Positions 342-29,980 of a stretch of DNA of 64,000 nt are shown piece by piece. The DNA lies in the NCBI GenBank assembly GCA_902610815.1, contig CACLXG010000001.1:405573-469572 (forward strand). The letters run 5' to 3'. Each line of letters opens with the position of its first letter. Within the stretch, counting starts at the first letter, position 1. A model generated the notes under the pieces. The model searched no databases and was not told the DNA's origin. It saw nothing but the letters and a program-made list of their open reading frames with translations. A program made the position numbers and the translations under genes. Origin of the DNA: an uncultured Candidatus Actinomarina sp. Its GTDB lineage: Bacteria; Actinomycetota; Acidimicrobiia; Actinomarinales; Actinomarinaceae.

Positions 342-1307
342 ATGAAAAAAATAATAGTAACTGGTGGTGCTGGATTTATAGGAACAAGTTTAGTAAAAGC
401 ATTGCTAAGAAATGATGTCGAAAAAATACTAATAATTGATGATCTTTCAACGGGTTCTAAATCAAATTTAGATAACTTTGTCTCAGATAACAAAATAGAA
501 TTCATTCATTCAAAAATTGAAGATATTGAAAATATAAACAAAGTATTTCAAAATTATGATTTTTGCTATCACCTTGCAGCAGGTGTTGGAGTTCAATATA
601 TTATGGATAATTTAAGTGATTCACTGCTAACGAATATTCTTGCTACCCATAAAGTTTTGGAGGCTTGCCAAGCCAATAATCTCCCAGTTTTATTAACTTC
701 AACATCTGAGGTGTACGGTGTCGCTGAAGATAAAGTTTGGACAGAGGAAACAAAAAGCTTAATTGGGCCTACTACAAAATTAAGATGGTCATACGCTGCA
801 TCAAAAATGATTGATGAGTTTATTGCTCTCTCTCTTTATGAAGAAAAAAAGGTTTCACCAATAATTGTTCGTTTATTTAATATAATTGGGCCTAATCAAC
901 TCTCAAAATTTGGAATGGTTGTTCCAAGATTTATTGAAGCTGCCATTAATGATGAAGATATATTAATTCATGGTGATGGTTCTCAATCCAGATCATTTAC
1001 TTGGGTAGATGATGTAGTTACCTATCTAATAAAACTTGCTGAGTTAAAAGCATATGGAGAAATATTTAATATTGGTCAAACAGAGGAAATTACAATAAAA
1101 GAACTTGCTGAGCTTATTATTGAAAAAAGCAATTCTAATTCAAAAATTATTTTTAAAAGTCATGAAGAAGTCTTTGGGAAGTCTTTTGAAGACCCAAATA
1201 GACGTACTCCTGGAATTAAGAAAATTGTTGAATTTACTGGAATTAAACCAAGTAAAAACATTGAATTTATGATTGAAAACATAATTAATTACAAACAAAA
1301 TAACTAG
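342..1307 (+). CDS. NAD-dependent epimerase/dehydratase (nucleotide-sugar)
   Basis: This 321-residue extended SDR enzyme acts on a nucleotide-activated sugar in the cytoplasm, typically a UDP-sugar 4-epimerase or dehydratase-type reaction. It has an intact NAD-binding GxxGxxG near residues 8-14 (TGGAGFIG), a catalytic YxxxK near residue 151 (YAASK) preceded by a Ser-rich strand, and the SRSFTWVDDV substrate-domain signature. Length is normal for the family. It lies between another epimerase and a glycosyltransferase on the same strand, so it belongs to the glycan operon. The product sugar is not predictable from sequence alone. Confidence 0.9.
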   Translation: MKKIIVTGGAGFIGTSLVKALLRNDVEKILIIDDLSTGSKSNLDNFVSDNKIEFIHSKIEDIENINKVFQNYDFCYHLAAGVGVQYIMDNLSDSLLTNILATHKVLEACQANNLPVLLTSTSEVYGVAEDKVWTEETKSLIGPTTKLRWSYAASKMIDEFIALSLYEEKKVSPIIVRLFNIIGPNQLSKFGMVVPRFIEAAINDEDILIHGDGSQSRSFTWVDDVVTYLIKLAELKAYGEIFNIGQTEEITIKELAELIIEKSNSNSKIIFKSHEEVFGKSFEDPNRRTPGIKKIVEFTGIKPSKNIEFMIENIINYKQNN

Positions 1308-1311
1308 TAAA

Positions 1312-2430
1312 GTGAATATTCTTATAACAACTGGAATATATCCTCCAGATGTTGGTGGTCCTGCAAGGTTTGTTCCATTAATTGCAGAAAAATTGTCTAA
1401 TAAAAATAAAGTAAAAGTTATTACTTTAAGTCAAGACCTGAGTAATTTGGACAAGCATGATTATCAAGTTATCAAGATTTTAAGAAAACAAAATAAATTT
1501 ATTAGATTTTTTAAAACAGTCTTTCTAATAGTCAAATTTGGAAGAAAGTCAGATATTATTTTCATCAATGGTTTGTGGCTTGAAACATATTTTGCGAACT
1601 TATTTATAAGAAAAAATACAATTAGAAAAATAGTAGGTGACCCGGTTTGGGAAAAGTATTATTCAAAATATAAAGTCACTGAAGAATTTGATGAATTTCA
1701 GTCAAAAAAATACAACATTTCAATAGAACTTTATAAGTTTTTTAGAAATGTTTCTATAAAGTCTGTCAATACAATAATTGTACCTTCAGATCATTTATCA
1801 AACTTTATAAAAAATATTGGCTTTTCTGGCGACTTAATGCAAATAAACAATGGAACAAAAAAAAGCAAAGATATTGAAAAAATATATGATGAAAATAATT
1901 TTTTAATTGTGAGTCGCCTAGTTAGGCATAAAAATATTGATCTTATAATCAAGTCATTTAATGATTTAAATAAACAAGATTCTTTAGACTTCAAACTAAA
2001 CATAATTGGTGAGGGGCCTGAATACAAAAATATTAAAAATCTTATAGAAAAATTCAACTTAAGTGACTCTATAAACCTTGTTGGCTCAAAATTTGGTAAT
2101 GAACTTGAAGAATATTATAAAAATTCAAATTACTTTTTACAAATATCAAGTTACGAAGGAATGCCCCATTCAATCCTTGAAGCAATGAATCATAAATTAA
2201 TTGTTATAGCATCTAAATTTGGAGGAAATTACGAACTTATTGGTAATAATGACTTTGGCTATATTGTTGAAAGTCTTGAAGTGGATCATGTTAAAGATTC
2301 TATAAAAAATGCAATTAATGATAGCCAAAATCAAACCATAGCCTCAAAAGGTAAAAATTTAGTAAATCAAGAATATAATATTGAAATAACCACACAAAAA
2401 TATGCTGAAGTAATTTTTAAAAATGAGTAA
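1312..2430 (+). CDS. GT4-family glycosyltransferase
   Basis: The predicted protein has 372 residues and a GT-B fold of the GT4 type. It should transfer a sugar from a nucleotide donor to a growing lipid-linked glycan at the inner face of the membrane. The N-terminus has the glycine-rich TGIYPPDVGGPAR stretch. The C-terminal half has a donor-binding segment (SRLVRHKNIDLII) and the EX7E motif (EGMPHSILE). The start is GTG, four bases after the upstream stop. The last eight bases overlap the next glycosyltransferase, indicating translational coupling. Donor and acceptor are unknown. Confidence 0.9.
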   Translation: MNILITTGIYPPDVGGPARFVPLIAEKLSNKNKVKVITLSQDLSNLDKHDYQVIKILRKQNKFIRFFKTVFLIVKFGRKSDIIFINGLWLETYFANLFIRKNTIRKIVGDPVWEKYYSKYKVTEEFDEFQSKKYNISIELYKFFRNVSIKSVNTIIVPSDHLSNFIKNIGFSGDLMQINNGTKKSKDIEKIYDENNFLIVSRLVRHKNIDLIIKSFNDLNKQDSLDFKLNIIGEGPEYKNIKNLIEKFNLSDSINLVGSKFGNELEEYYKNSNYFLQISSYEGMPHSILEAMNHKLIVIASKFGGNYELIGNNDFGYIVESLEVDHVKDSIKNAINDSQNQTIASKGKNLVNQEYNIEITTQKYAEVIFKNE

Positions 2431-3487
2431 GAAAAAAATACTATATTTAAACCTTTCGACTGACGAAAAAGATATATCTCTAGGATTTTCAAATTCTTGG
2501 CTGTCAAAGTTTGCTGATAAATTTGAAAGTGTGGATTTGATATCACTCAATAAATCTTCAAACAATCGAACCGAATTTAAAAATGTCAATATTTTTGGTA
2601 TTTCAGAATCAGAAAAGTTGTCAAGGATTCATAAATATTTAAAACTAAAAAACTTAGTCAAAGATTTAACCCAAAAGAATGATTACATCATATGTTTTTC
2701 ACACATGTCCCCTCTACTATCAATAATTGCTAATTGGTACAATAAAAACAAAAAGACAATATCAATTCTTTGGTACACTCATCCAATGCCAAAAGAGCTA
2801 ATTAAGAAAATTGTTTTATACATTAGTTTATTTTTCAATAATCAGATTGTTACAGCCTCTGAATCTTCATTTCCATATTTTTCAAAAAAAGTTAATGTAA
2901 TTGGTCATGCAATTGATTACGGCGCATTTTTAAATAAAAAAACAAATATTAGTAACAATGATTTTGTTATTTTAAGTAGAATTTCAAAATCAAAAAATTT
3001 GCAATTGAGTATTGATTGTTTTTTAAAAAGTAAATTCAATCAAGATTCAATCACAGTGATTGGAGATGCTGTAACAGATGCTGATATGGAATATAAAGCT
3101 TTCCTTACTGAAAAATATAGAACAAAAAACAATGTAATTTTTAAGGGCATGATTCCTCACAAAGAACTGCCTGATGTTTTGAGAAGTTATTCATATCATA
3201 TCAACTCAACTCCCCCAGGATTTTATGATAAGTCTGTTTTAGAAACGCTTGCTGCAGGTATATATAATTTTTATTTAAATGCTGACTACGATAAACACTT
3301 TGATCCAAAATCATTAAAGTATACAAAATTTTCATCTAAACAAAATTCATTAACTGATTTGCTGAACTCAGTTTATGAATTGAATGATAATAAGATTTTA
3401 GAAATTATTTCATTCGCACAAAACAGTGTCTCAAAAGAATCTGTAGAAACTATTTCCGATAGAGTTTTGTCTACAGTTGAGAACTAA
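2423..3487 (+). CDS. Glycosyltransferase (GT-B type)
   Basis: The protein has 354 residues. Its C-terminal half resembles GT4 donor domains: an LSRISKSKNLQLSIDCF segment followed by a shortened, divergent EX7E region around GFYDKSVLETLAAG. The N-terminal half is poorly conserved, as expected for the acceptor domain. It overlaps the preceding glycosyltransferase by eight bases. It ends convergently with the decarboxylase-like gene on the other strand, sharing 17 bases. The first acidic residue of the usual EX7E pair is not clearly present, so the catalytic arrangement may differ from its neighbour. Confidence 0.8.
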   Translation: MSKKKILYLNLSTDEKDISLGFSNSWLSKFADKFESVDLISLNKSSNNRTEFKNVNIFGISESEKLSRIHKYLKLKNLVKDLTQKNDYIICFSHMSPLLSIIANWYNKNKKTISILWYTHPMPKELIKKIVLYISLFFNNQIVTASESSFPYFSKKVNVIGHAIDYGAFLNKKTNISNNDFVILSRISKSKNLQLSIDCFLKSKFNQDSITVIGDAVTDADMEYKAFLTEKYRTKNNVIFKGMIPHKELPDVLRSYSYHINSTPPGFYDKSVLETLAAGIYNFYLNADYDKHFDPKSLKYTKFSSKQNSLTDLLNSVYELNDNKILEIISFAQNSVSKESVETISDRVLSTVEN

Positions 3488-4400
3488 CCCAATCTATAGT
3501 TTTAGTTAATCCATCCTCTAGCTTTACTTTAGGCTCCCAGTTAAGCAATGTTTTAGCTTTAGTAATATCTGGTTTTCTTTGTTTGGGATCGTCTTGAGGT
3601 AAGTCTTTATTGATTAATTTTGAATTTGAATTTGTAATTTCTATTATTTTTGATGCAAGTTCATTAATAGTAATTTCAGTTGGATTACCAATGTTGAATA
3701 CATCATTATGCTCAGATTCCATTAAAGAAACAATGCCGTTTACAGTATCTTGGACGTAGGAAAAGCTTCTTGTTTGAGATCCATCACCGTACACTGTCAA
3801 ATCTTCACCTTTTAAGGCTTGAACTATAAAATTTGTTACAACTCTTCCATCATTTAATTGCATTCTTGGTCCATAAGTATTAAAGATTCTAACTACTTTT
3901 GTTTGAAGATTATATGTTCTGCTGTAAGTTGCCGTAGCCGCCTCAGCAAATCTTTTTGCTTCATCGTACATACTTCTCTCTCCATTGGGGTTCACATTAC
4001 CCCAGTATTCTTCACTCTGTGGTGAAACTTCAGGATCACCGTATATTTCCGATGTTGAAGCTAGTAGATAATCAGCATTCTTTACTTTTGCTAGTCCTAA
4101 AGTGTTAATGGTACCAATACTTCCAGCTTTTAGTGTGTTTACTGGATTTTCTTGATATGCAATCGGTGATGCTGCACTTGCAAAATGAAAAATAAAATCA
4201 ATTTCTTCAGAAATATCTATATGATCTTGCACATCATGTTGAATAAATTTTACATTTTTGTATTCCAGCAGATGCTCTATGTTGTTCTTATTTCCTGTAA
4301 GCAAATTATCCAATAGAATCAAATCATGATTCTTTTCAAAAAGGGTATCAGCTAAATGAGAACATACAAATCCCGCCCCTCCTGTAATTAAAATATTCAA
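3471..4400 (-). CDS. UDP-glucuronate decarboxylase-like SDR enzyme
   Basis: This 309-residue extended SDR protein is most like UDP-glucuronate decarboxylase (UDP-xylose synthase). It has YDEAK at residues 145-149, the RIFNTYGPRM strand and the SRSFSYVQD signature. Its placement two bases after UDP-glucose dehydrogenase fits, because that enzyme makes the substrate. The start is TTG at 4400 with GGAG five bases upstream. One oddity is that the N-terminal dinucleotide motif reads TGGAGFVC, with Cys13 where the family has the third glycine of GxxGxxG. The remaining active-site residues look intact, so activity with altered NAD binding is possible. An epimerase or dehydratase role is the alternative. 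Confidence 0.8.
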   Translation of the reverse strand: MNILITGGAGFVCSHLADTLFEKNHDLILLDNLLTGNKNNIEHLLEYKNVKFIQHDVQDHIDISEEIDFIFHFASAASPIAYQENPVNTLKAGSIGTINTLGLAKVKNADYLLASTSEIYGDPEVSPQSEEYWGNVNPNGERSMYDEAKRFAEAATATYSRTYNLQTKVVRIFNTYGPRMQLNDGRVVTNFIVQALKGEDLTVYGDGSQTRSFSYVQDTVNGIVSLMESEHNDVFNIGNPTEITINELASKIIEITNSNSKLINKDLPQDDPKQRKPDITKAKTLLNWEPKVKLEDGLTKTIDWVSSQL

Positions 4401-4401
4401 T

Positions 4402-5601
4402 TTAACTCCATGGATAATAAATTACACAGCTATTTTTGGAACAAAATTTATTAAGTTCACTACTGAATTCATCTTTTTGTGGGTACATAATTGAAACAAG
4501 TGAATTTGGTGCAATATCATTAATACTTGATACATGCGAATATTCTGGTACCTGAATCTGTTGATCTAAAATAATAACTTCAATTTCCATTTTTGAGAGT
4601 ATTTTATAAATATCTATAGTTGGAGAATTTCTTAAATCATCCGTGTCTTCCTTAAATGCAGCACCTACTAAATAAATTTTTTCTAAATTATTGCTTTGTT
4701 TTAATGATATTAATTGATTTACAGTCCACTTAAGATGTTCATCATTTGATTCAATTATATTTGATATTAAAGGTAGATTTAATTCATTTTTATTATAAAA
4801 ATTATTAACTTCGATAAGATCTTTAGGAAAGCATGAACCGCCCCATGAAGGAGATGGTCTAAAGTAATGTAATCCGATTCTGGTATCTAGTCCAACTCCT
4901 TTTAATACATCTTGAAGATTTGCATTTGAATACTCAACTAATCTTGTTGCTTCATTTGCAAATGAAAGCCTCATAGGTAAATAAGTATTAGCAAGATATT
5001 TAATTAACTGAGAACTTATTGGGTCAGTAATAATTATTTCAGCATCATAGCTGCTGTATAATTGCTCCAGCTTCTTAACTTTCTCTTGATTTAATCCACC
5101 TATTACAACTCTATCAGGATTAAAAAAATCATAAACTGCGCTTCCTTCTCTTAAAAATTCCGGATTAAAAGTTAAAAGATTTCTATCGTAACCCACATTT
5201 TTACAAACATTTTCAATTTCATATGGAGGTATAGTAGATTTTACTGTGATTGTAATATCTTTATTTTCAAGTTTTGAAATCTCTGTAATTGCTGATTCTA
5301 AAAATTTTGTATCGACAGAGTTAGTTTCAAGATTATTTGGTGTTTGAACACATATAAATACAATGTCAGTTTCATCCCATTTAAGATCAATATAATTTTC
5401 ATGAAATGACATACGATTAAAATTTTCTTCCTTTGAAAAATACTCATCAAGGCCAGGCTCAAAAAAAGGTAACTCTTTATTCGCTAACTTATTAATTTTT
5501 TTGGAATCTAAATCGATAAAGGAAATATGGTGACCTTGTTCGGCAAAGCCAACACCTGTTACTAATCCAACATAGCCTGTTCCCACTATGACAATGTTCA
5601 T
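4402..5601 (-). CDS. ugd: UDP-glucose 6-dehydrogenase
   Basis: The enzyme oxidises UDP-glucose to UDP-glucuronate using two NAD+. From the ATG at 5601 it has 399 residues, beginning with the Rossmann motif VGTGYVGL. The catalytic cysteine lies in GGSCFPKDL near residue 257, and the central NEATRLVEYSNAN helix and C-terminal UDP-binding domain are present. An in-frame TTG at 5619 would add six residues, but the family normally begins just before the Rossmann strand, so ATG is preferred. The decarboxylase-like gene follows after one base; together they make UDP-glucuronate and possibly UDP-xylose. A GDP-mannose dehydrogenase assignment is less likely. Confidence 0.92.
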   Translation of the reverse strand: MNIVIVGTGYVGLVTGVGFAEQGHHISFIDLDSKKINKLANKELPFFEPGLDEYFSKEENFNRMSFHENYIDLKWDETDIVFICVQTPNNLETNSVDTKFLESAITEISKLENKDITITVKSTIPPYEIENVCKNVGYDRNLLTFNPEFLREGSAVYDFFNPDRVVIGGLNQEKVKKLEQLYSSYDAEIIITDPISSQLIKYLANTYLPMRLSFANEATRLVEYSNANLQDVLKGVGLDTRIGLHYFRPSPSWGGSCFPKDLIEVNNFYNKNELNLPLISNIIESNDEHLKWTVNQLISLKQSNNLEKIYLVGAAFKEDTDDLRNSPTIDIYKILSKMEIEVIILDQQIQVPEYSHVSSINDIAPNSLVSIMYPQKDEFSSELNKFCSKNSCVIYYPWS

Positions 5602-5632
5602 ATTATGCAATGTTAACAATTTATAGTTTTAA

Positions 5633-5643: not shown

Positions 5644-6714
5644 ATGATAAATTATATAGCTCATTGGGATTGGATATTGACAAAATCGCGTGGATCGATT
5701 GTAGAAAGTATTGAAGATCGTGAATTTAGGTCTATATGCCCTATTGAGAACAAGACTTTGTTATCTAGATATTATAAAGACAGTATTGACTGGGAAATTA
5801 ATAGAAAAAATAGTTTTAGATTAAATGGCATATTTAAGTTAATTAAAATACTAAGGACCTTAGAAGATAATTCAATTGTTCATGTTTTTACTTTAAAATC
5901 TGGCTTTATTTATATCATTTCTAAATTATTTGTTAAAAAAGAATTTAAAGCAATTCTTTCTATTACGGGATTGGGGTATTTATTTAGTCAAAAAGCTTCG
6001 GCTAAAATGTTGAAGACATTTCTAAGACCAGTATTTTACTTATGTATTAATAAAATATATGAAGTAATTATTTTTCAAAATGTAGATGATCAGAATACTT
6101 TTCTTGATTATTCAAGATTTAAAAATAAAACTGAGCTTATAAAAAGTTCGGGTATAGATACTGAAAAGTATGAATTAAAAAATAAATTTAATAACACTCT
6201 AAAAGTTATTTTTGCTTCAAGGTTGTTAAAAGATAAAGGTATCAATAAATTTACAGAATTAGCAAAATCTTTACAAGATAGTAATTTAGAATTTTTCATT
6301 GCTGGTGATGTAGATCTTGGAAATCCTGAATCTCTTAATGAAAGCGAATTAGAAGAATTAAAGAAATTAAATTATATTCACTATCTAGGGTTTATAGATG
6401 TTGAAAAAGAGATACATAAATATGACGTTCTAGTATCTTTATCTACTCATGAAGGTTTTTCTAGAATTTTATTAGAATCATCTTTTGTAGGGCTTTATAT
6501 TGTAAGCTTGGAAAATAATGGCACTAAGTTTATTTCTGAACTTGAAAATTCAGAACTTATTACAACTTTACGTATTGATAGTTTTATAAAAGTACTTGAA
6601 AATTTAAAAGAAAATGAATTAGAGCCAAGTTCTAAAAATCGTGAATTCATCAGAAAAAATTTCTCTACTAATGAAGTTGCTAAACAATTTAAAAATATTT
6701 ATGAGCGAATTTAA
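5644..6714 (+). CDS. GT4-family glycosyltransferase
   Basis: The predicted protein has 356 residues and should add a sugar to a lipid-linked intermediate. It shows the GT4 C-terminal hallmarks: an ASRLLKDKGINKF donor-binding strand, the acidic FIAGDVDLGNP turn, and EX7E within THEGFSRILLES. The architecture resembles polysaccharide-locus enzymes that act right after the initiating transferase. That fits with the WecA/MraY-like gene whose ATG overlaps this stop codon by one base. It is transcribed divergently from ugd, and its own start may be leaderless. Donor sugar unknown. Confidence 0.9.
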   Translation: MINYIAHWDWILTKSRGSIVESIEDREFRSICPIENKTLLSRYYKDSIDWEINRKNSFRLNGIFKLIKILRTLEDNSIVHVFTLKSGFIYIISKLFVKKEFKAILSITGLGYLFSQKASAKMLKTFLRPVFYLCINKIYEVIIFQNVDDQNTFLDYSRFKNKTELIKSSGIDTEKYELKNKFNNTLKVIFASRLLKDKGINKFTELAKSLQDSNLEFFIAGDVDLGNPESLNESELEELKKLNYIHYLGFIDVEKEIHKYDVLVSLSTHEGFSRILLESSFVGLYIVSLENNGTKFISELENSELITTLRIDSFIKVLENLKENELEPSSKNREFIRKNFSTNEVAKQFKNIYERI

Positions 6715-7748
6715 TGAATAATTTTCAAATAAATATATATTATTCAGCATTATCTGCACTTAGCTTATCAATTATCTTAAATTATTTAATTTTTACTCTA
6801 ACTAAAAATATAAATTATCGAAATAATATTGAAGAAGTAAGGCTTTCAAAAAGAAATGTGCCGCCTTTAGGTGGCATTGCAATTGCTCTAGCTTTCTTAA
6901 TTTCTGTAAGACTTCTTGGACAGGCTGATTCAAATTTTTTAACTATAGGTTTGTTTGGAGTTGCAATTGCTTTGTTAGGTGTATTTGATGATTTTTTTAA
7001 TCTTAACTGGAAAGTAAAACTTTTTTTTCAAATTTTGTTTGTTATTGTTCCAATTGCTTTATTAAATGTATTTTTAAACTTTGAATCAATGATTGGCTTA
7101 GATTTAAACAATTCATTAAATATTTTTATTTCAACATTATGGATAGTTCTTTTGATCAATTCGATTAATTTTATTGATAATATGGACGGTTTAGCTGTTG
7201 TTGTTACTGGCGGAATAAGTATTCAAATTGTAATGCTTACCTATATTTTTTCACAAAATAAGTTAACAGACATATCAATTATTTTGCTTTTTACAATGCT
7301 AGGTTTTTTTGTTTTCAATTTTCCTCCCGCAAAGTTATATCTTGGAGATTCTGGAAGCCTCTTTATCGGTTTTCTTCTTGGATTTATAAGTATTTTGTTT
7401 ACTTGGAATAATGCCGACAACCAGATCCTTAGCTATGTCATAAGTCCAATTATATTATTCTTCACAATTCCACTGTTAGATTTCTTTGTAATTATGCATT
7501 ACCGTATATCAAATAAACTTTCTCCGACAACTGGAGGAACTGACCATATTTCTCATAGATTGCTTGCTTTAGGATTTCCTGAAAAAAAAGTACTTTTTCT
7601 ATTTTTCATTTATTCTGTTTTAAACTTTATATTAATTATTTGCTTTGTAATGCTTGAAGGTTGGTTATCAGTGTTTTCGTTTTTTCTTTATTTAGTGCAA
7701 TTAATGGCAATGTTTAATTATTTAAAAAAATTAAAAATATTAAATTAA
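6714..7748 (+). CDS. WecA/MraY-family undecaprenyl-phosphate sugar-1-phosphate transferase
   Basis: This polytopic membrane protein of 344 residues should start glycan synthesis by moving a sugar-1-phosphate, usually GlcNAc-1-P, from a UDP-sugar to the polyprenyl-phosphate carrier. Visible family motifs include the basic RLSKRNVPPLGG loop, FDDFFNLNWKVKL, the Mg-binding NFIDNMDGLA, LGDSGS, and the cytosolic GGTDHISHRLL loop. About ten hydrophobic segments are evident. The HISHRL loop is more like WecA/TagO than MraY, and there is no division-cluster context, so a secondary-polymer role is inferred. It overlaps the convergent pyrophosphorylase by nine bases. Confidence 0.9.
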   Translation: MNNFQINIYYSALSALSLSIILNYLIFTLTKNINYRNNIEEVRLSKRNVPPLGGIAIALAFLISVRLLGQADSNFLTIGLFGVAIALLGVFDDFFNLNWKVKLFFQILFVIVPIALLNVFLNFESMIGLDLNNSLNIFISTLWIVLLINSINFIDNMDGLAVVVTGGISIQIVMLTYIFSQNKLTDISIILLFTMLGFFVFNFPPAKLYLGDSGSLFIGFLLGFISILFTWNNADNQILSYVISPIILFFTIPLLDFFVIMHYRISNKLSPTTGGTDHISHRLLALGFPEKKVLFLFFIYSVLNFILIICFVMLEGWLSVFSFFLYLVQLMAMFNYLKKLKILN

Positions 7749-8465
7749 TTTTTCTTCCAAATCAATAATCCGTTCTGGGGTGCCTGCATCTATCCACCAA
7801 GTATCCAAATTTATACTGGAACATTTTCCTTCATTAATATATAGATTTATTAAATCAGTAATTTCATACTCTCCCCTGTCGGACGGTTTTAATTCATCAA
7901 TCTTTTTCATACATGTTGAATCAAAGATATATAATCCCACTACCGCGTTGTTGCTTTTAGGTTCTTTCGGTTTTTCCTCAATCTGAATTACCTTATTTCT
8001 TGAATCAGTAACAGCTACTCCAAACTCCTCAGGATTTGTTACTTCTTTTGTAAAAATAATTGAATTTTTATCTAAGGTAAAAAGTTCTTCAAAATTGATG
8101 TTTTCTATTGGATTTTTACCAAAGAAATTATCTCCAAGAACAAAAACTACTTGGTCCCCATCATTAACGTAAGATTTTGCCTGTTTTAATGCGTGCGATA
8201 TTCCAAGCTGTTCAGATTGAATTGCATACTCAATATTGTATTTTTCATTGATTTGACTTGTTTCATTTCTTATAAGGGCGTCAAAAGAAGGATTTGTGAT
8301 TACTACAAAATCTTTTAACCCCCAGCTAATTAATTGCTCTAATTGTTGGAGTATCATTGATTTTGAATTTACTTTTAAAAGAATTTTAGTTGATTGATTG
8401 CCTCTAAAACCTTGTAGCCTGGTGCCAAGACCACCTGCTGCGATAATACATTTAATAGCTCCCAC
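7740..8465 (-). CDS. NDP-sugar pyrophosphorylase (sugar-1-phosphate nucleotidyltransferase)
   Basis: This 241-residue cytoplasmic enzyme should activate a sugar-1-phosphate with NTP. The N-terminus carries the nucleotide-binding signature IIAAGGLGTRL. The metal and substrate region FVLGDNFFG and a late WWIDAGTPERI segment resemble RmlA-type glucose-1-phosphate thymidylyltransferases. It lacks the C-terminal left-handed helix of GlmU. The first lysine of the classical signature is displaced, with KILLKV following. The start is GTG at 8465, eight bases after a TATAAT box, so the mRNA is probably leaderless. dTTP and UTP specificity cannot be distinguished. Confidence 0.85.
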   Translation of the reverse strand: MGAIKCIIAAGGLGTRLQGFRGNQSTKILLKVNSKSMILQQLEQLISWGLKDFVVITNPSFDALIRNETSQINEKYNIEYAIQSEQLGISHALKQAKSYVNDGDQVVFVLGDNFFGKNPIENINFEELFTLDKNSIIFTKEVTNPEEFGVAVTDSRNKVIQIEEKPKEPKSNNAVVGLYIFDSTCMKKIDELKPSDRGEYEITDLINLYINEGKCSSINLDTWWIDAGTPERIIDLEEKLI

Positions 8466-8503: not shown

Positions 8504-9613
8504 ATGAAAGAAAATCGATACATAATACTATTTGTCATCCTAATTATGGTTGGTATAAGTGCTTACATGTTGTTTCCTAATTTTCAAACTCAAGAATTTG
8601 ATCAAAGTGTAGTAGAAAACATTATGGATGGTGTAACGACAACGTCCGTTAGTGAAAATTCGGATTCGAATAATACTATCAATCAAGAAGAAAATAATGT
8701 CATCGAAAGCCCCATTGAAAGTGAACCTGAAATTGAAAACTTACTTAATTTAAATCAAACATTAGTTATCAAAGACAATATTACCTCTTATTTATTAATT
8801 GGATCTGACAAGAGGAGTGATAAAAATGAAGATGGCTATATTGAAGGACAACGTGCAGACGTAATAATTTTAGGATTTTTTAATGAGACAATTAATAAAA
8901 ATGCTTTGATTTCTATTCCTAGAGACACATTAGTAACCAATCTATGCACAGGTGAATTAGAGAGAATTAATGCAAGTTTTAAACAAAATAACTGTGGAAA
9001 TGCTGCTGAAAATATAGTTGCTGCTGTTAATAACTTAACTGGTATAAAAATAGAACATATTGCAAGCTTTAATTTTGAAGGTTTTGAGAAAATAATTGAT
9101 TCGTTTAATGGTATAGAAATTTGTGTAGAAGAAACACAAAGAGAAGGATATTCATTCGAACTTCAGAAAGGTTGCCAGAAAGTTAATGGCTCTACCGCGT
9201 TAAATTGGACTCGATCAAGAAACACCGAAGTGTTAATCGGACAAAAAATTGTTGATGAAGATGGTAATGATAAATCTCAGTGGAAAAAAATGGAATATGT
9301 AAGTGACTTATCTAGAGTTGAAAGACAACAATACCTTGTAATTCAACTTTTAAATGAGTTAGAAAATTTTTCAAGTTTCGGCGAACTGTTACAGTTTATT
9401 CAAGCTCTTGAAGAGACATTTGTTGTTGATGAGGGTCTAAGCGTTAACAAAGCTACAAATATTTTGTGGAGCCTAAGGACTCTAGATTTTAATAATATTC
9501 CAAAACTTACAGTGCCAACGACTCCATATCAACTCATTGATGGAAGACAAGTATTAATTCTAAATGGTAACTTTTATGATTTTGCAAAAGAAAATCTACT
9601 AATCGAAGAATAA
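8504..9613 (+). CDS. LytR-CpsA-Psr (LCP) family cell-wall glycopolymer ligase
   Basis: This membrane-anchored enzyme of 369 residues moves undecaprenyl-linked polymers onto peptidoglycan. One N-terminal membrane helix (about residues 7-25) is followed by an acidic, Asn/Ser-rich linker and then the LCP domain. That domain has LLIGSDKR near residue 95, the RADVIILGF strand, ISIPRDTLV and a later WTRSRN basic pair. The conserved Asp and Arg residues that bind the pyrophosphate are present. It lies next to the Wzy-like polymerase, whose 3' end it overlaps by 40 bases on the opposite strand. Presumably it attaches the glycan built by this locus. Confidence 0.9.
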   Translation: MKENRYIILFVILIMVGISAYMLFPNFQTQEFDQSVVENIMDGVTTTSVSENSDSNNTINQEENNVIESPIESEPEIENLLNLNQTLVIKDNITSYLLIGSDKRSDKNEDGYIEGQRADVIILGFFNETINKNALISIPRDTLVTNLCTGELERINASFKQNNCGNAAENIVAAVNNLTGIKIEHIASFNFEGFEKIIDSFNGIEICVEETQREGYSFELQKGCQKVNGSTALNWTRSRNTEVLIGQKIVDEDGNDKSQWKKMEYVSDLSRVERQQYLVIQLLNELENFSSFGELLQFIQALEETFVVDEGLSVNKATNILWSLRTLDFNNIPKLTVPTTPYQLIDGRQVLILNGNFYDFAKENLLIEE

Positions 9614-12063
9614 TATCCCGAGACTAAATAGCTTATACAAACAAATAAAAATAGTGAAGCATCCGGAGAGTAAATCAAATCATTAGTTAAGTTCTGTAAA
9701 AGGAATGCAATTAATACAATTTTTGAAAAATGATTTTTATCTTTATCAGAGAATGTTTTAAGAAGTATAAAAAATATCAAGCTGTAAATAATTACAGACA
9801 GCAATGCTCCATATTCAACAGCAAATGTTAAATAACCGTTATGAGCTGTAGTTAGCTGATTCAAGTGAGAGTTGGAGGTTATTTTTCCTGGAAGGGCTAC
9901 GATTTTATCAACATTTGTTGCTAAAACTCCACTTGATAAACTTAGGTCACCCACTTTATTGCTATATGTACCAGTTTTGTCTGCCCATTCAAAAAATAAT
10001 CTTGAATCATAAATATACCATTTCCAAGAATGCTTTCCGGAATTAAATTGTGAAGAAGAAGAAATCAAAACTTGTTTATTGCTAGGTATGCTTGGTAAGG
10101 AAATTTCAAGGTCAACAATAAAATCTTGGCCTGAAAGATTTAGATTTTGTGGAATTGCAATCCAATACTTGTTCGGTGAATATGAAATCACCCCAAAATC
10201 TGTAAATTTAAGTTCGTTAATATCTTCATAACTTATCAATGTATTAGGTTTGTAAAGAAAAAAAGAATCATTTAATTCATTCTTATTGAAATTTACTTTT
10301 AACAAATCCTGATTAGTTGTTATAGACAATTTAGATATTTCTCCTTCTAACCAGTTGTTTCCAAAAGATTGTCCATCAGCCCACCCACCAACTTCAATAA
10401 ATGAAAGGTTTTCTTCTAAATCAATATAATCACCATATGTTTGAGATTCACCAATTTGATTCCATTCTGTTCCATTTTCTGAAATATAAAATTCAACAAT
10501 TGATCTTGGAGCCAACCCATCTTTGTATTTAAATTTCATTCTTAAAAATGCATGATAATTTTTATATTTACAAGCTGGACATAAATTATTTAAATCATCA
10601 ATTGTGATTGTACCTCTATAAATCGCCAACTCTAGAAATTTAGATAACTCTCCTATCGTCATAATCCTGTCTGGACAAAGACTTTTAAGGTCATAACTAC
10701 AGTTGACCAGAAGAGAGTTTGATTCTAGTGATGAAAAATACTGTAATTCAATTGGTTCAACATCAGTATAAATATTTTTTGATAATTCAACCTGGGTACC
10801 TAAACCGGTTAATTGATTATAAAAAATACAAGCAAATTGAGATCTTGTAATATTTGAATCGTCTTTTATGTTTTTTAAACATAAATCCTTACTTTGGCTT
10901 AATGACTGCTCATTAAAGTTAAAGTACGCAGTTAACACTTTTGATACGTCGATAATCTTTGTCTTTTCAATCTGACAAATTTTACTTTCTTCAACACAAT
11001 TATCACTTAATATATATCTTGTTAAATAGTTAAACCCTTCATCAGAGTATTCATATCTATAATTGTATTTTTCTGAGCTATCGGAAGGAAAAATATCAGA
11101 ATTAATCTTATTTAAATCAAAATTGAAAACATTCTGCAATTGTTGTAAATCAACAATGTAAAAAGATGGTTCAAAAGTTTTGTATACATAATTTCCACCC
11201 CCGGTACCTATGAGTGGGTTTATATTCTCTATTGCAATATCGCTTAAAACGGCCCTATCGGAACCCTTAAGGATAGTTTGAGGATTAAATGAAAATATAA
11301 ATAAGGAAAAGACAAAAATTAATGTAGAAAAAATTACAAAAGTTTTTATATTTAATTTTTCTTTTAAATAGAAAAATAAAATTAAAGCAATTACAAATGC
11401 AATATAACTTCCTCTCGATTTAGAAAAAACTAAGGAGATTAATGAAATTAAAAACATGATTAAAGAAAATGATTTGAATATTCCTTTATTTAAAAACCAT
11501 AAATTTAAAAAATATAATGACGCAACAACACATACAAAGCCAAATACATTTGGACCACTACCTTGAAGTCCAGCTAACCTTCCAGAAAGAAATATATTGT
11601 TTGAATCAATATTTGCCGAAACCCAACCTGCATCTTGTAAATAAATCCTATCTCGAACTAATAAAAACAAACTATTTACAAGAACTACAAAAATTAGAAA
11701 AAAGAAAAAAGTATCTTCAGTATTGTAGAGTTTATTGGCAACAAGATACTTCATGAAAAGATAAGCAAGTAAAGACATGAATACAAATCTAATATTTGTT
11801 CTGTTAAGTAAATCTATCCCGCTTGAATTTAAGAATGAGGAATAAATCCAGAAAAATACTGTTATACCTGCCCAAAAGTAATCAACTTTATTGAAATTCT
11901 TAGTTTTATTAGATAAAAAATTTAAAAACAGAAACACAAAAATTCCAACTAACGGAATATCTTCTAGTCCGATTCCAAAAAAGTTGATACCGAAGTTTGG
12001 AGGGATTAAAAGAGATGAAAAAGCAACTGCTCCTAGAACAAAAAGTTGTTTGTTCTTAGTCAT
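9574..12063 (-). CDS. Wzy-like O-antigen polymerase/ligase with SLH-like and LamG-like insert
   Basis: The 829-residue membrane protein (ATG at 12063; an in-frame TTG at 12078 is less likely) has about nine N-terminal transmembrane helices, the GTGGGNY motif near residue 285, and an AHNGYLTFAVEYG motif near residue 740 followed by more helices. These are hallmarks of the Wzy_C polymerase/ligase superfamily, where the two motifs normally lie close together. Here about 440 residues separate them. Around 345-415 and 430-485 are two SLH-like repeats (ITRSQFACIFYNQL; YTDVEP then CPDRIMT). Around 505-590 is a lectin-like sandwich (VEFYISENGTEW, IEVGGWADG), and around 630-715 a second one. The frame is uninterrupted. 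Polymerase versus ligase is undecided. Confidence 0.85.
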   Translation of the reverse strand: MTKNKQLFVLGAVAFSSLLIPPNFGINFFGIGLEDIPLVGIFVFLFLNFLSNKTKNFNKVDYFWAGITVFFWIYSSFLNSSGIDLLNRTNIRFVFMSLLAYLFMKYLVANKLYNTEDTFFFFLIFVVLVNSLFLLVRDRIYLQDAGWVSANIDSNNIFLSGRLAGLQGSGPNVFGFVCVVASLYFLNLWFLNKGIFKSFSLIMFLISLISLVFSKSRGSYIAFVIALILFFYLKEKLNIKTFVIFSTLIFVFSLFIFSFNPQTILKGSDRAVLSDIAIENINPLIGTGGGNYVYKTFEPSFYIVDLQQLQNVFNFDLNKINSDIFPSDSSEKYNYRYEYSDEGFNYLTRYILSDNCVEESKICQIEKTKIIDVSKVLTAYFNFNEQSLSQSKDLCLKNIKDDSNITRSQFACIFYNQLTGLGTQVELSKNIYTDVEPIELQYFSSLESNSLLVNCSYDLKSLCPDRIMTIGELSKFLELAIYRGTITIDDLNNLCPACKYKNYHAFLRMKFKYKDGLAPRSIVEFYISENGTEWNQIGESQTYGDYIDLEENLSFIEVGGWADGQSFGNNWLEGEISKLSITTNQDLLKVNFNKNELNDSFFLYKPNTLISYEDINELKFTDFGVISYSPNKYWIAIPQNLNLSGQDFIVDLEISLPSIPSNKQVLISSSSQFNSGKHSWKWYIYDSRLFFEWADKTGTYSNKVGDLSLSSGVLATNVDKIVALPGKITSNSHLNQLTTAHNGYLTFAVEYGALLSVIIYSLIFFILLKTFSDKDKNHFSKIVLIAFLLQNLTNDLIYSPDASLFLFVCISYLVSGYYSSISRFSFAKS

Positions 12064-12079
12064 ATTTTTTACTATCAAG

Positions 12080-12153
12080 TGGGCCCGGCAGGACTCGAAC
12101 CTGCGACCGACGGATTATGAGTCCGTTGCTCTAACCAACTGAGCTACAGGCCC
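12080..12153 (-). tRNA. tRNA-Met(CAT) (elongator, or Ile2)
   Basis: A complete cloverleaf on the minus strand: acceptor GGGCCTG/CGGGCCC, a normal D-arm, anticodon stem ACGGA/TCCGT with loop CTCATAA (anticodon CAT), and TTCGAGT in the T-loop. CCA is not encoded. A lysidine-modified tRNA-Ile2 reads the same way, so the amino acid is not certain. It is not an initiator type, since the three G-C pairs of the initiator anticodon stem are missing. Confidence 0.92.
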
Positions 12154-12159
12154 TATTAA

Positions 12160-12447
12160 CTATGAAATTATTGATTGAACTTTAAGAGCAAGGCTCATGT
12201 CACCAGCAACTTTTAATTTACCAGTCATGAAAGCAGCTTGTGGACTTGAAGATCCATCCATAATTGCCTGCATAGTTTCAGTATCAGTTGTAACAGTGCA
12301 TGTAGCTTCATTATCATCTGATGAAATCTCACCACTAACACCATCGATAAATACTATATTATCGTCAGCAACAAATTTAACTGAACCACCTAATACACTG
12401 AGGTCTTTACCTTCAGCTCTTTCTTTAACTATTGCAAGATAATCCAT
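12160..12447 (-). CDS. SCP2 sterol-binding domain protein
   Basis: This small soluble protein (95 residues) has an SCP2-type lipid-binding fold: alternating beta strands and a C-terminal FMTGKLKVAGDMSLALKVQSII segment typical of the family. The ATG at 12447 is preferred over the ATG at 12459 because GGAGG lies between them at proper Shine-Dalgarno distance. It is a single-domain version, with no enzyme fused. Such proteins bind acyl chains or hydrophobic ligands, and the ligand here is unknown. It is flanked by tRNA-Met and tRNA-Asn genes, so its transcript may need processing. Confidence 0.85.
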   Translation of the reverse strand: MDYLAIVKERAEGKDLSVLGGSVKFVADDNIVFIDGVSGEISSDDNEATCTVTTDTETMQAIMDGSSSPQAAFMTGKLKVAGDMSLALKVQSIIS

Positions 12448-12493
12448 TTTTTCCTCCATTCAATTTAATTATAGTGAAAAATTTAATGTATAG

Positions 12494-28744: not shown

Positions 28745-29980
28745 TTAATTTTGCTTTGAGTGCTTATTGAATGCATAAAATTCATAAAATTTTTGTGCAA
28801 CCATACTCAAAGACGTCGCAATTGCTATACCAACTGCAGCAAATTGCTCAACAAAAAAGAATGAAGCTAGGACAAATACAACTAGTGAAATAAACCTACT
28901 GAAAGCATGGTATTGAATCAAGTTTGAAAATAAAAGTAGTTGTCGTATCCAAAAGGAGTTTAAATAAATTATATAACCAATTATGAGAATAATCATTGGT
29001 TCATAAGCATCAAGAAAGGAACTTCCTGAAATAAGGTTTATCAAGTTTTCACCAAAATAAACATACGGAATAATAATGATTATTGAAAGTGGTAATAAGA
29101 AATTTTTAACAAGTTCGGAAAAGTTTACTCTTAAACTTTCTTTTGAAAGTTGATTTTGCACCAATGGTGTTAATACTGAAATAATATAAGTTATTGGTTC
29201 AACAATCCGTTTTGCAATTCTAAAAATACCAACTGTAGATAGATCTGTAAAGTAGCCCAGAATTACTAAATCTAAATGCTGTGGAACTATACCTACAAGT
29301 TGATCTAGTCGTTGTTTGAGAAAATCTGCTTTAAATTTTATAAAGTAATCCATCAAATTTTTAATTGACACTTCTGAAATTATTAAATGATTTCTGCATA
29401 TGAAAAAACCAAAAAAACCGTAAACTGTTGAGAAAACTGCTTGTCCTATAAAATAATTATCAATACTTGCGTTTACACTAAATAAAATAACAATAGTAAT
29501 AAACCTCATCAAATTTGAAACTGTATCTACCAAAGCAAATTTTTTGAATTGACCATTAAAAGTTAAAACTGCTTTTGAACTCTCTGAAAGGGTTTGAAAT
29601 ATTCTACAAATTAATAATATATTGAGTGCGAAACTCATACTATAGTTTCCAAATAGTGAGTTAAGTTCAGATTGAAATAATATTAAACAAATCAAATAGC
29701 AAACTATACCAATTAGTAAGTCGTATATGAGAGAGAGTGTAAACATACTTTCTCCATATTTTTTTAACATCAATAAAGTTACATCACTGTTTCTGGCATG
29801 AAGTGTCCTGAAAATAATTGCGATTAATGCTAAAACTAATACGGCTTGACCATAACTGGTGGTGCCTAAACCTCTGGTAACAATACCAACTTGAACAAAA
29901 AGAATAATAACAATTAGTAGTTGAGAAGAAGCTAGTTCTTTTATGTCAACGATTAAAGTTTTTAAATACTTAAAATTCAT
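28745..29980 (-). CDS. Wzx-type polysaccharide flippase (MOP superfamily)
   Basis: This polytopic membrane protein of 411 residues has about 12 hydrophobic segments and short charged loops. The pattern QVGIVTRGLGTTSYGQAVLVLALIAI at the N-terminus is typical of polysaccharide-transport proteins of the MATE/MOP fold. It should flip lipid-linked oligosaccharide units to the outer face of the membrane. It is about 17 kb from the Wzy-like polymerase, so the glycan pathway is split in two places in this window. The downstream neighbour is serC and the upstream neighbour is tRNA-Ala. The substrate is unknown. Confidence 0.88.
   Translation of the reverse strand: MNFKYLKTLIVDIKELASSQLLIVIILFVQVGIVTRGLGTTSYGQAVLVLALIAIIFRTLHARNSDVTLLMLKKYGESMFTLSLIYDLLIGIVCYLICLILFQSELNSLFGNYSMSFALNILLICRIFQTLSESSKAVLTFNGQFKKFALVDTVSNLMRFITIVILFSVNASIDNYFIGQAVFSTVYGFFGFFICRNHLIISEVSIKNLMDYFIKFKADFLKQRLDQLVGIVPQHLDLVILGYFTDLSTVGIFRIAKRIVEPITYIISVLTPLVQNQLSKESLRVNFSELVKNFLLPLSIIIIIPYVYFGENLINLISGSSFLDAYEPMIILIIGYIIYLNSFWIRQLLLFSNLIQYHAFSRFISLVVFVLASFFFVEQFAAVGIAIATSLSMVAQKFYEFYAFNKHSKQN

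Follow-up and report, generated by a model that had tools for sequence, protein, structure and literature searches.

A predicted Wzy_C/WaaL-type membrane enzyme of Candidatus Actinomarina with a concanavalin-like sandwich and an SLH-derived triplet in its catalytic loop

A 64,000-nucleotide stretch of the genome of an uncultured Candidatus Actinomarina sp. (assembly GCA_902610815.1, contig CACLXG010000001.1, positions 405,573 to 469,572; called the window below) encodes a membrane enzyme of an already known type, that of the Wzy_C polymerases and the O-antigen ligase WaaL. What is new is the content of its catalytic loop, a concanavalin-like sandwich together with three repeats derived from the S-layer homology (SLH) domain, a combination found here only in this genus. 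The enzyme is read, with a probability of about one half, as a glycan polymerase of Wzy_C type and WaaL fold that builds a wall polysaccharide linked to peptidoglycan, its loop forming an extracellular head made of the sandwich and an SLH-derived adaptor. In a literature search for O-antigen ligases or polymerases or Wzy proteins with S-layer homology, LamG, concanavalin-like or lectin loops, no title or abstract opening described this architecture, subscription journals being thinly covered.

The full-length enzyme was modelled with AlphaFold using 15 relatives (mean predicted local distance difference test score, pLDDT, 63.9). The model contains 12 long helices, nine ahead of and three behind a 490-residue loop that lies between transmembrane helices TM9 and TM10 and, as judged from the model helices and the pattern of hydropathy and charge, faces outward. 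Its best structural match was WaaL (7tpg; VIA Z 21.8, root-mean-square deviation 4.9, 354 residues), and Foldseek returned the WaaL fold with an E-value of 0.21 and a probability of 0.96. The model supports an enzyme of the WaaL fold and Wzy_C type, in agreement with a preliminary description of the window made from the sequence alone. Pfam Wzy_C (PF04932) matched the window protein at residues 203-288 only, with 22.8 bits against a curated cut-off of 31.7; confinement to the first half is expected when the domain is split by a loop. The same profile matched 30 of 30 relatives at E<=0.1 (best E-value 5.2e-9), one of which (L006) exceeded the curated cut-off. A search of NCBIfam gave a weak IctB-type match (E-value 0.0027) and nothing else.

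WaaL requires R215, R288 and H338 (PMC3643930). The equivalents in the enzyme, assigned by motif order and not by residue-level structure alignment, are R217, R270 and H741. R162, R217 and R270 are kept in all 28 alignment rows that cover them, R162 and R217 being on the predicted outer side of the membrane, and H741 and N742 are kept in 30 of 30 rows. The loop is flanked by GTGGGNY at residues 285-291 and AHNGYLTFAVEYG at residues 740-752. Motifs GN1 and GN2 are described from one class of Wzy enzymes, which has been connected with beta linkages (PMC12502699); RX15GXG of the enzyme is a full match to GN1, and HNX9G matches GN2 minus its last glycine. Judged from this conservation, the catalytic part is intact. 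By mutant coordinates, about 13 residues separate the two motifs in pneumococcal Wzy23F (PMC12502699). The corresponding distance from G288 to H741 is 453 residues in the window protein, close to the 440 or so given in the preliminary description, 434-453 residues in the 11 long forms of the enzyme and 288-293 residues in the 17 complete short forms. The enzyme thus resembles WaaL and the Wzy_C family in its membrane fold, its outward TM9-TM10 loop, its Arg, Arg and His positions and its GN1-type and HNX9G motifs, and differs from them in two additional folded modules, which bring the loop to about 450 residues, and in its location in a gram-positive-type gene cluster with a LytR-CpsA-Psr (LCP) protein.

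The first of these modules, the sandwich, is present in 30 of 30 aligned relatives and holds many invariant aromatic and polar residues. In a model of the loop alone (mean pLDDT 67.6), the blocks of the sandwich mostly reached pLDDT values of 72-93. Foldseek related this model to concanavalin A (E-value 5.9e-3, probability 0.99), while VIA, over the two models, matched the sandwich to concanavalin-type lectins at Z 7.0-8.2 (7.0-7.6 for concanavalin A itself, loop model) and to a circularly permuted GH16 glucanase (1ajo) at Z 10.0 (loop model). The modelled fold of residues ~503-738 is accordingly that of a jelly-roll sandwich as seen in these proteins, from which it differs by a sequence identity below 15 % and by the lack of a LamG profile match at the cut-off. 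Two LamG- or concanavalin-like stretches had been described here earlier; the lectin-like fold was recovered, but comparison of the loop model showed that a single sandwich spans the region, which rules out two separate LamG domains. A search with Pfam LamG profiles found no match in the window protein, and one of the 30 relatives matched Laminin_G_3 with an E-value of 0.095. Sequence searches of the PDB with two alignments of relatives (A2 and A3) gave no match below an E-value of 0.3. Among 396 genomes of the phylum, a sample that lists no other genome of the genus, the sandwich profile matched only the genome of the window.

The second module, the SLH-like insert, occurs only in the long forms. 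A profile built from its 11 sequences was compared with that of an SLH-like triplet in another protein of the genus, which combines SpoIID, SLH-like and PG_binding_1 parts (copy of this genome in G000:C4, L121). The score was 80.2, and 100 column-permuted controls reached at most 22.0. Against triplets of the class that Pfam recognises as SLH, the insert scored 37.9 (maximum of 100 permuted controls, 18.7), and the two triplet profiles scored 118.7 against each other. When the insert was split into the window type and the other long forms, the two halves matched each other with a score of 92.3 and the genus triplet with scores of 55.7 (window type) and 61.4 (other long forms). With 60 controls, their matches to the class SLH profile were weaker, namely 34.0 for the window type (3 rows, control maximum 19.2) and 27.9 for the other long forms (8 rows, control maximum 20.6, probability 18 %). 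The genus triplet profile consisted of 5 sequences, and the class profile was made from 13 of 20 SLH loci: 15 were tried, two of which fell short of three repeats under the pattern applied, and another five were left out because of frame problems (two) or as apparent second matches inside proteins already used (three). The E-values of hhalign hold for a single comparison.

In the structure comparison, residues ~337-487 of the loop model matched five SLH entries at Z 7.0-7.7 over 103-114 residues, in a part of the model of low to fair confidence and in a range (Z <13 for helical folds) that may reflect a common arrangement. All five of the listed matches covering the helical part alone were SLH trimers of SpaA (6cwf, 6cwn, 7sv5) or Sap (3pyw, 6bt4), which the insert resembles in having three repeats with one TR motif kept. 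Eight cysteines of the insert are invariant in 11 of 11 long forms, and the insert keeps five of the six columns of cysteines seen in the class SLH triplets. By profile-profile comparison, conserved cysteine pairs and structural match to the SpaA and Sap trimers, the insert is related to accepted SLH domains. It differs from the SpaA and Sap domains in these cysteine pairs and in sitting in the loop of a membrane enzyme and not at the end of a protein. Its nearest profile relative, the SpoIID protein, shares its cysteine layout and its C-(CP)SR-SIGE block and, unlike the host enzyme of the insert, is peptidoglycan-associated and without a membrane enzyme part. The SLH relation claimed in the preliminary description therefore stood, but the number of repeats had to be raised from two to three, with repeat A the most worn and with shorter versions of repeats B and C in several long forms. 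Pfam SLH (PF00395) had no match in the whole protein or the insert and none genome-wide at E<=10, so that the claimed domains were recovered by the more sensitive methods and not by Pfam searches of the segments. A loop consisting of one unrelated fold was rejected. The anatomy is well supported, confidence being lowest in how the third SLH-like repeat folds.

The enzyme frame, read from the ATG at position 12063 to the stop at 9574 as a single open frame of 829 codons, exactly as first described, and its long loop are real. In a survey of 296 genomes of the class (gene called at E<=1e-10), the gene was found in 31, all of the genus of the window; within the genus, 31 of 42 genomes carry it, including all eight that are at least 90 % complete. 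The gene-bearing genomes comprise 11 with the insert, 17 with complete short forms, two with copies cut by contig ends (short where seen) and one with a stop-broken copy (G172:C1:211863-213838, several stops). The same long loop in 11 genomes excludes an assembly or sequencing artefact as its source. Estimates of the ratio of nonsynonymous to synonymous substitution (dN/dS) from four close pairs were 0.12-0.21 for the insert, 0.07-0.12 for the sandwich and 0.11-0.19 for the membrane parts. Both modules are therefore maintained, and values of 0.07-0.21 in every part, together with the distribution of the gene, show that the frame is not a product of chance. In the class's other Wzy_C proteins, the match to the 149-position profile is mostly a single compact stretch. 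No relatives of the enzyme were found in phage records or viral contigs.

For the alignments, the broken copy was dropped throughout, a duplicate of the window (L001) was removed and two partial sequences (L007, L016) were left out of the tree. The enzyme tree (28 rows) places the long forms on one side of a branch, which says little alone, as it consists essentially of three long branches: the window type, the other long forms and the short forms. Trees of DnaG (10 genomes) and of a neighbouring gene (9 genomes) part long-form from short-form genomes with supports of 100 and 100. In the tree of the LCP protein (11 rows), unlike in that of DnaG, the window type groups with short-form genomes, which speaks against a cluster history that is simple and shared, and suggests that its genes have passed from one half of the genus to the other. 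The first membrane part of the window type is nearer to the short forms (34 % versus 26 % for the other long forms), and its sandwich is slightly nearer to the other long forms (41 % versus 38 % for the short forms). The simplest account has the insert gained or lost a single time as the genus split into its two halves, and cluster genes exchanged afterwards.

The enzyme gene lies in a glycan cluster (Table 1) whose order is kept in the loci of ten relatives as far as each extends: (epimerase), glycosyltransferases, dehydratase, dehydrogenase, glycosyltransferase, WecA/TagO-like initiator, nucleotidyltransferase, LCP, enzyme, SCP2-like frame and DnaG. The exception is the first glycosyltransferase slot, whose protein is weakly similar to that of the window in the long-form loci L097, L098 and L103 and has another protein as its best match in L100. 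LCP proteins link lipid-carried glycans to peptidoglycan (PMC7831098). A second glycan set lies just before the window (L120, G000:C1:386000-405572) and encodes a Bac_transf initiator, a flippase-like protein, a 466-amino-acid Wzy_C protein, two UDP-GlcNAc 2-epimerases, a heparinase-like protein and an asparagine-synthase-like protein. It is consistent with the variable glycan island known for this order (PMC7771536). The two pathways look independent of each other because the upstream set has its own initiator, flippase and Wzy_C protein. Far from the cluster, a flippase-like gene (Polysacc_synt, 20.7 bits, below the cut-off) was seen beside a tRNA-Ala at positions 28745-29980 of the window on the minus strand.

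The preference for a polymerase comes from the gene cluster, with its own initiator, glycosyltransferases and LCP protein, and from the independent upstream set. The cluster would make an undecaprenyl-linked repeat unit, the enzyme would join such units outside the membrane, and the LCP protein encoded next to it would couple the chain to peptidoglycan. With the catalytic loop between TM9 and TM10 enlarged into an extracellular head, the sandwich probably holds the acceptor or the nascent chain beside the catalytic His741 throughout the genus. In one half of the genus, the SLH-derived three-repeat domain, presumably stabilised by disulfides between its cysteine pairs, would most likely serve as an adaptor, bringing the head into place at the wall or at a partner glycan. 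Several points weigh against this interpretation. Neither a flippase nor Wzz was found among the scanned cluster genes (Wzz was not searched genome-wide), and confidence in the two models is only middling (mean pLDDT 63.9 for the full enzyme, 67.6 for the loop). Moreover, neither the fold nor the Wzy_C profile separates a polymerase from a ligase, as PF04932 is common to both. The main rival, a WaaL/PglL-like ligase whose head would recognise an acceptor (a surface protein or a wall glycan) to which the finished chain is transferred, is possible at a distinctly lower probability. The best fold match is WaaL, and Wzy_C is common to the WaaL and PglL ligases (PMC3643930); large acceptor-binding domains would make sense on a ligase, and the polymerase role could fall to the 466-amino-acid protein of the upstream set. 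The cluster, on the other hand, already contains an LCP transferase for attachment of the chain, and the enzyme gene has diverged at about the same pace as the cluster glycosyltransferases (32-41 % identity outside one close relative). Such a pace is usual for polymerases.

SpaA binds its ligand with contributions from Trp13, Gly29 and the TRAE residue Arg43 (PMC6081394). The insert departs from SpaA and Sap in that, by the hhalign columns, its pocket is degenerate, a further point against the adaptor: Arg43 is kept in repeat B alone (11 of 11), the Gly29 position is conserved in none of the three repeats, and the Trp13 position is aligned only in repeat C, where it is not Trp. A search for the pyruvyl transferase family of CsaB (PF04230) found no match at E<=1 in the 93.7%-complete genome of the window. 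Classical binding of pyruvyl-ManNAc, the polymer binding of known SLH systems that had been suggested at first, is unlikely, because the pocket residues are mostly lost and CsaB was not found, though the insert may bind other ligands. The same two observations make it rather improbable that the insert is a true wall anchor, which binds a wall polymer and so holds the enzyme where the wall is growing, as could be argued from its SLH homology, its nearest kin in a SpoIID/peptidoglycan-binding protein, the invariant Arg407 of its ITR motif (11 of 11) and the upstream UDP-GlcNAc 2-epimerases, which could supply ManNAc. Its presence in just 11 of 31 gene-bearing genomes, the shortened repeats B and C and the worn pocket would also fit a passive spacer left by domain insertion, yet this is doubtful in view of the eight cysteines kept in every long form and of a dN/dS as low as in the rest of the protein.

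The combination of modules suggests that the enzyme handles chain or wall while building. Chain-length control, tethering and protein glycosylation, which the preliminary description named, would be candidate roles. In a more speculative version, to which only a low probability is given, it would be a built-in ruler and holder, the sandwich gripping the growing chain at the active site and the SLH-derived domain sensing or touching the wall, so that one protein determines both how long the chain becomes and its hand-over to the LCP ligase. Such an enzyme would do in cis what Wzz co-polymerases do in trans. Wzy and WaaL enzymes determine how long bacterial surface sugars become and where they end up, and chain-length control where no Wzz is evident is an open question. 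The long enzyme and its shorter natural versions without one module offer a ready-made comparison for module function. The finding is also relevant to the wall of an uncultured lineage abundant in the ocean, the structure and composition of which have been called not known (PMC7771536).

Table 1. Positions in the window of the enzyme gene, its parts and the neighbouring genes
Feature	Positions	Strand	Evidence or remark
NAD-dependent sugar epimerase/dehydratase	342..1307	(+)	PF01370, E 4.5e-45
Glycosyltransferase	1312..2430	(+)	PF00534, E 1.2e-34
Glycosyltransferase (weak)	2423..3487	(+)	PF00534, E 2e-4
GDP-mannose-dehydratase-like epimerase	3471..4400	(-)	PF16363, E 4.2e-52
UDP-glucose/GDP-mannose-type dehydrogenase	4402..5619	(-)	PF03721, E 8e-50
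Glycosyltransferase	5644..6714	(+)	PF00534, E 2.4e-14
WecA/TagO-type glycan initiator (Glycos_transf_4)	6714..7748	(+)	PF00953, E 9.8e-31
Sugar-nucleotide transferase	7740..8465	(-)	PF00483, E 2.4e-43
LCP glycopolymer transferase, convergent, overlapping the last 40 bases of the enzyme gene	8504..9613	(+)	PF03816, E 3.1e-26
Wzy_C/WaaL-fold polymerase or ligase gene	9574..12063	(-)	Single frame; Wzy_C 22.8 bits; WaaL 7tpg Z 21.8
C-terminal membrane part, TM10-TM12	9601..9807	(-)	Model helices
GN2-type motif HNX9G, H741-G752	9808..9843	(-)	30/30 rows; equated with WaaL H338 by motif order
Concanavalin-like beta sandwich, residues 503-738, long and short forms	9850..10557	(-)	Foldseek (concanavalin A), VIA
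SLH-like insert, residues 318-503, eight invariant cysteines, long form only	10555..11112	(-)	Profile-profile match to genus SpoIID-SLH triplet
SLH-like repeat C, residues ~430-485, C...CPDR, TRAE Arg lost	10609..10776	(-)	hhalign columns
SLH-like repeat B, residues ~391-418, ITR Arg407 invariant in 11/11	10810..10893	(-)	hhalign columns, alignment
SLH-like repeat A, residues ~337-383, Cys pair kept, TRAE Arg lost	10915..11055	(-)	hhalign columns
GN1-type motif R270-X15-GTG, start of catalytic loop	11200..11256	(-)	28/28 covering rows
N-terminal membrane part, TM1-TM9, residues 1-264	11272..12063	(-)	Model helices, hydropathy and charge pattern
tRNA-Met	12079..12153	(-)	Directly upstream of the enzyme gene

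An alternative start of the enzyme, an in-frame TTG at position 12078 that abuts the end of tRNA-Met, would give a protein of 834 amino acids. Of 23 loci checked, 22 have an in-frame TTG, GTG or ATG as a start codon for the enzyme 0-3 nucleotides past the 3' end of tRNA-Met, the sole exception being L064, with an ATG about 16 nucleotides downstream. A leaderless mRNA for the enzyme may arise through processing of this tRNA. Between tRNA-Met and tRNA-Asn, at positions 12160-12459 on the minus strand, lies a frame of 99 amino acids resembling SCP2 sterol-transfer proteins; it has a homologue in nine of the ten loci of relatives, the tenth (L102) starting just before the enzyme gene.

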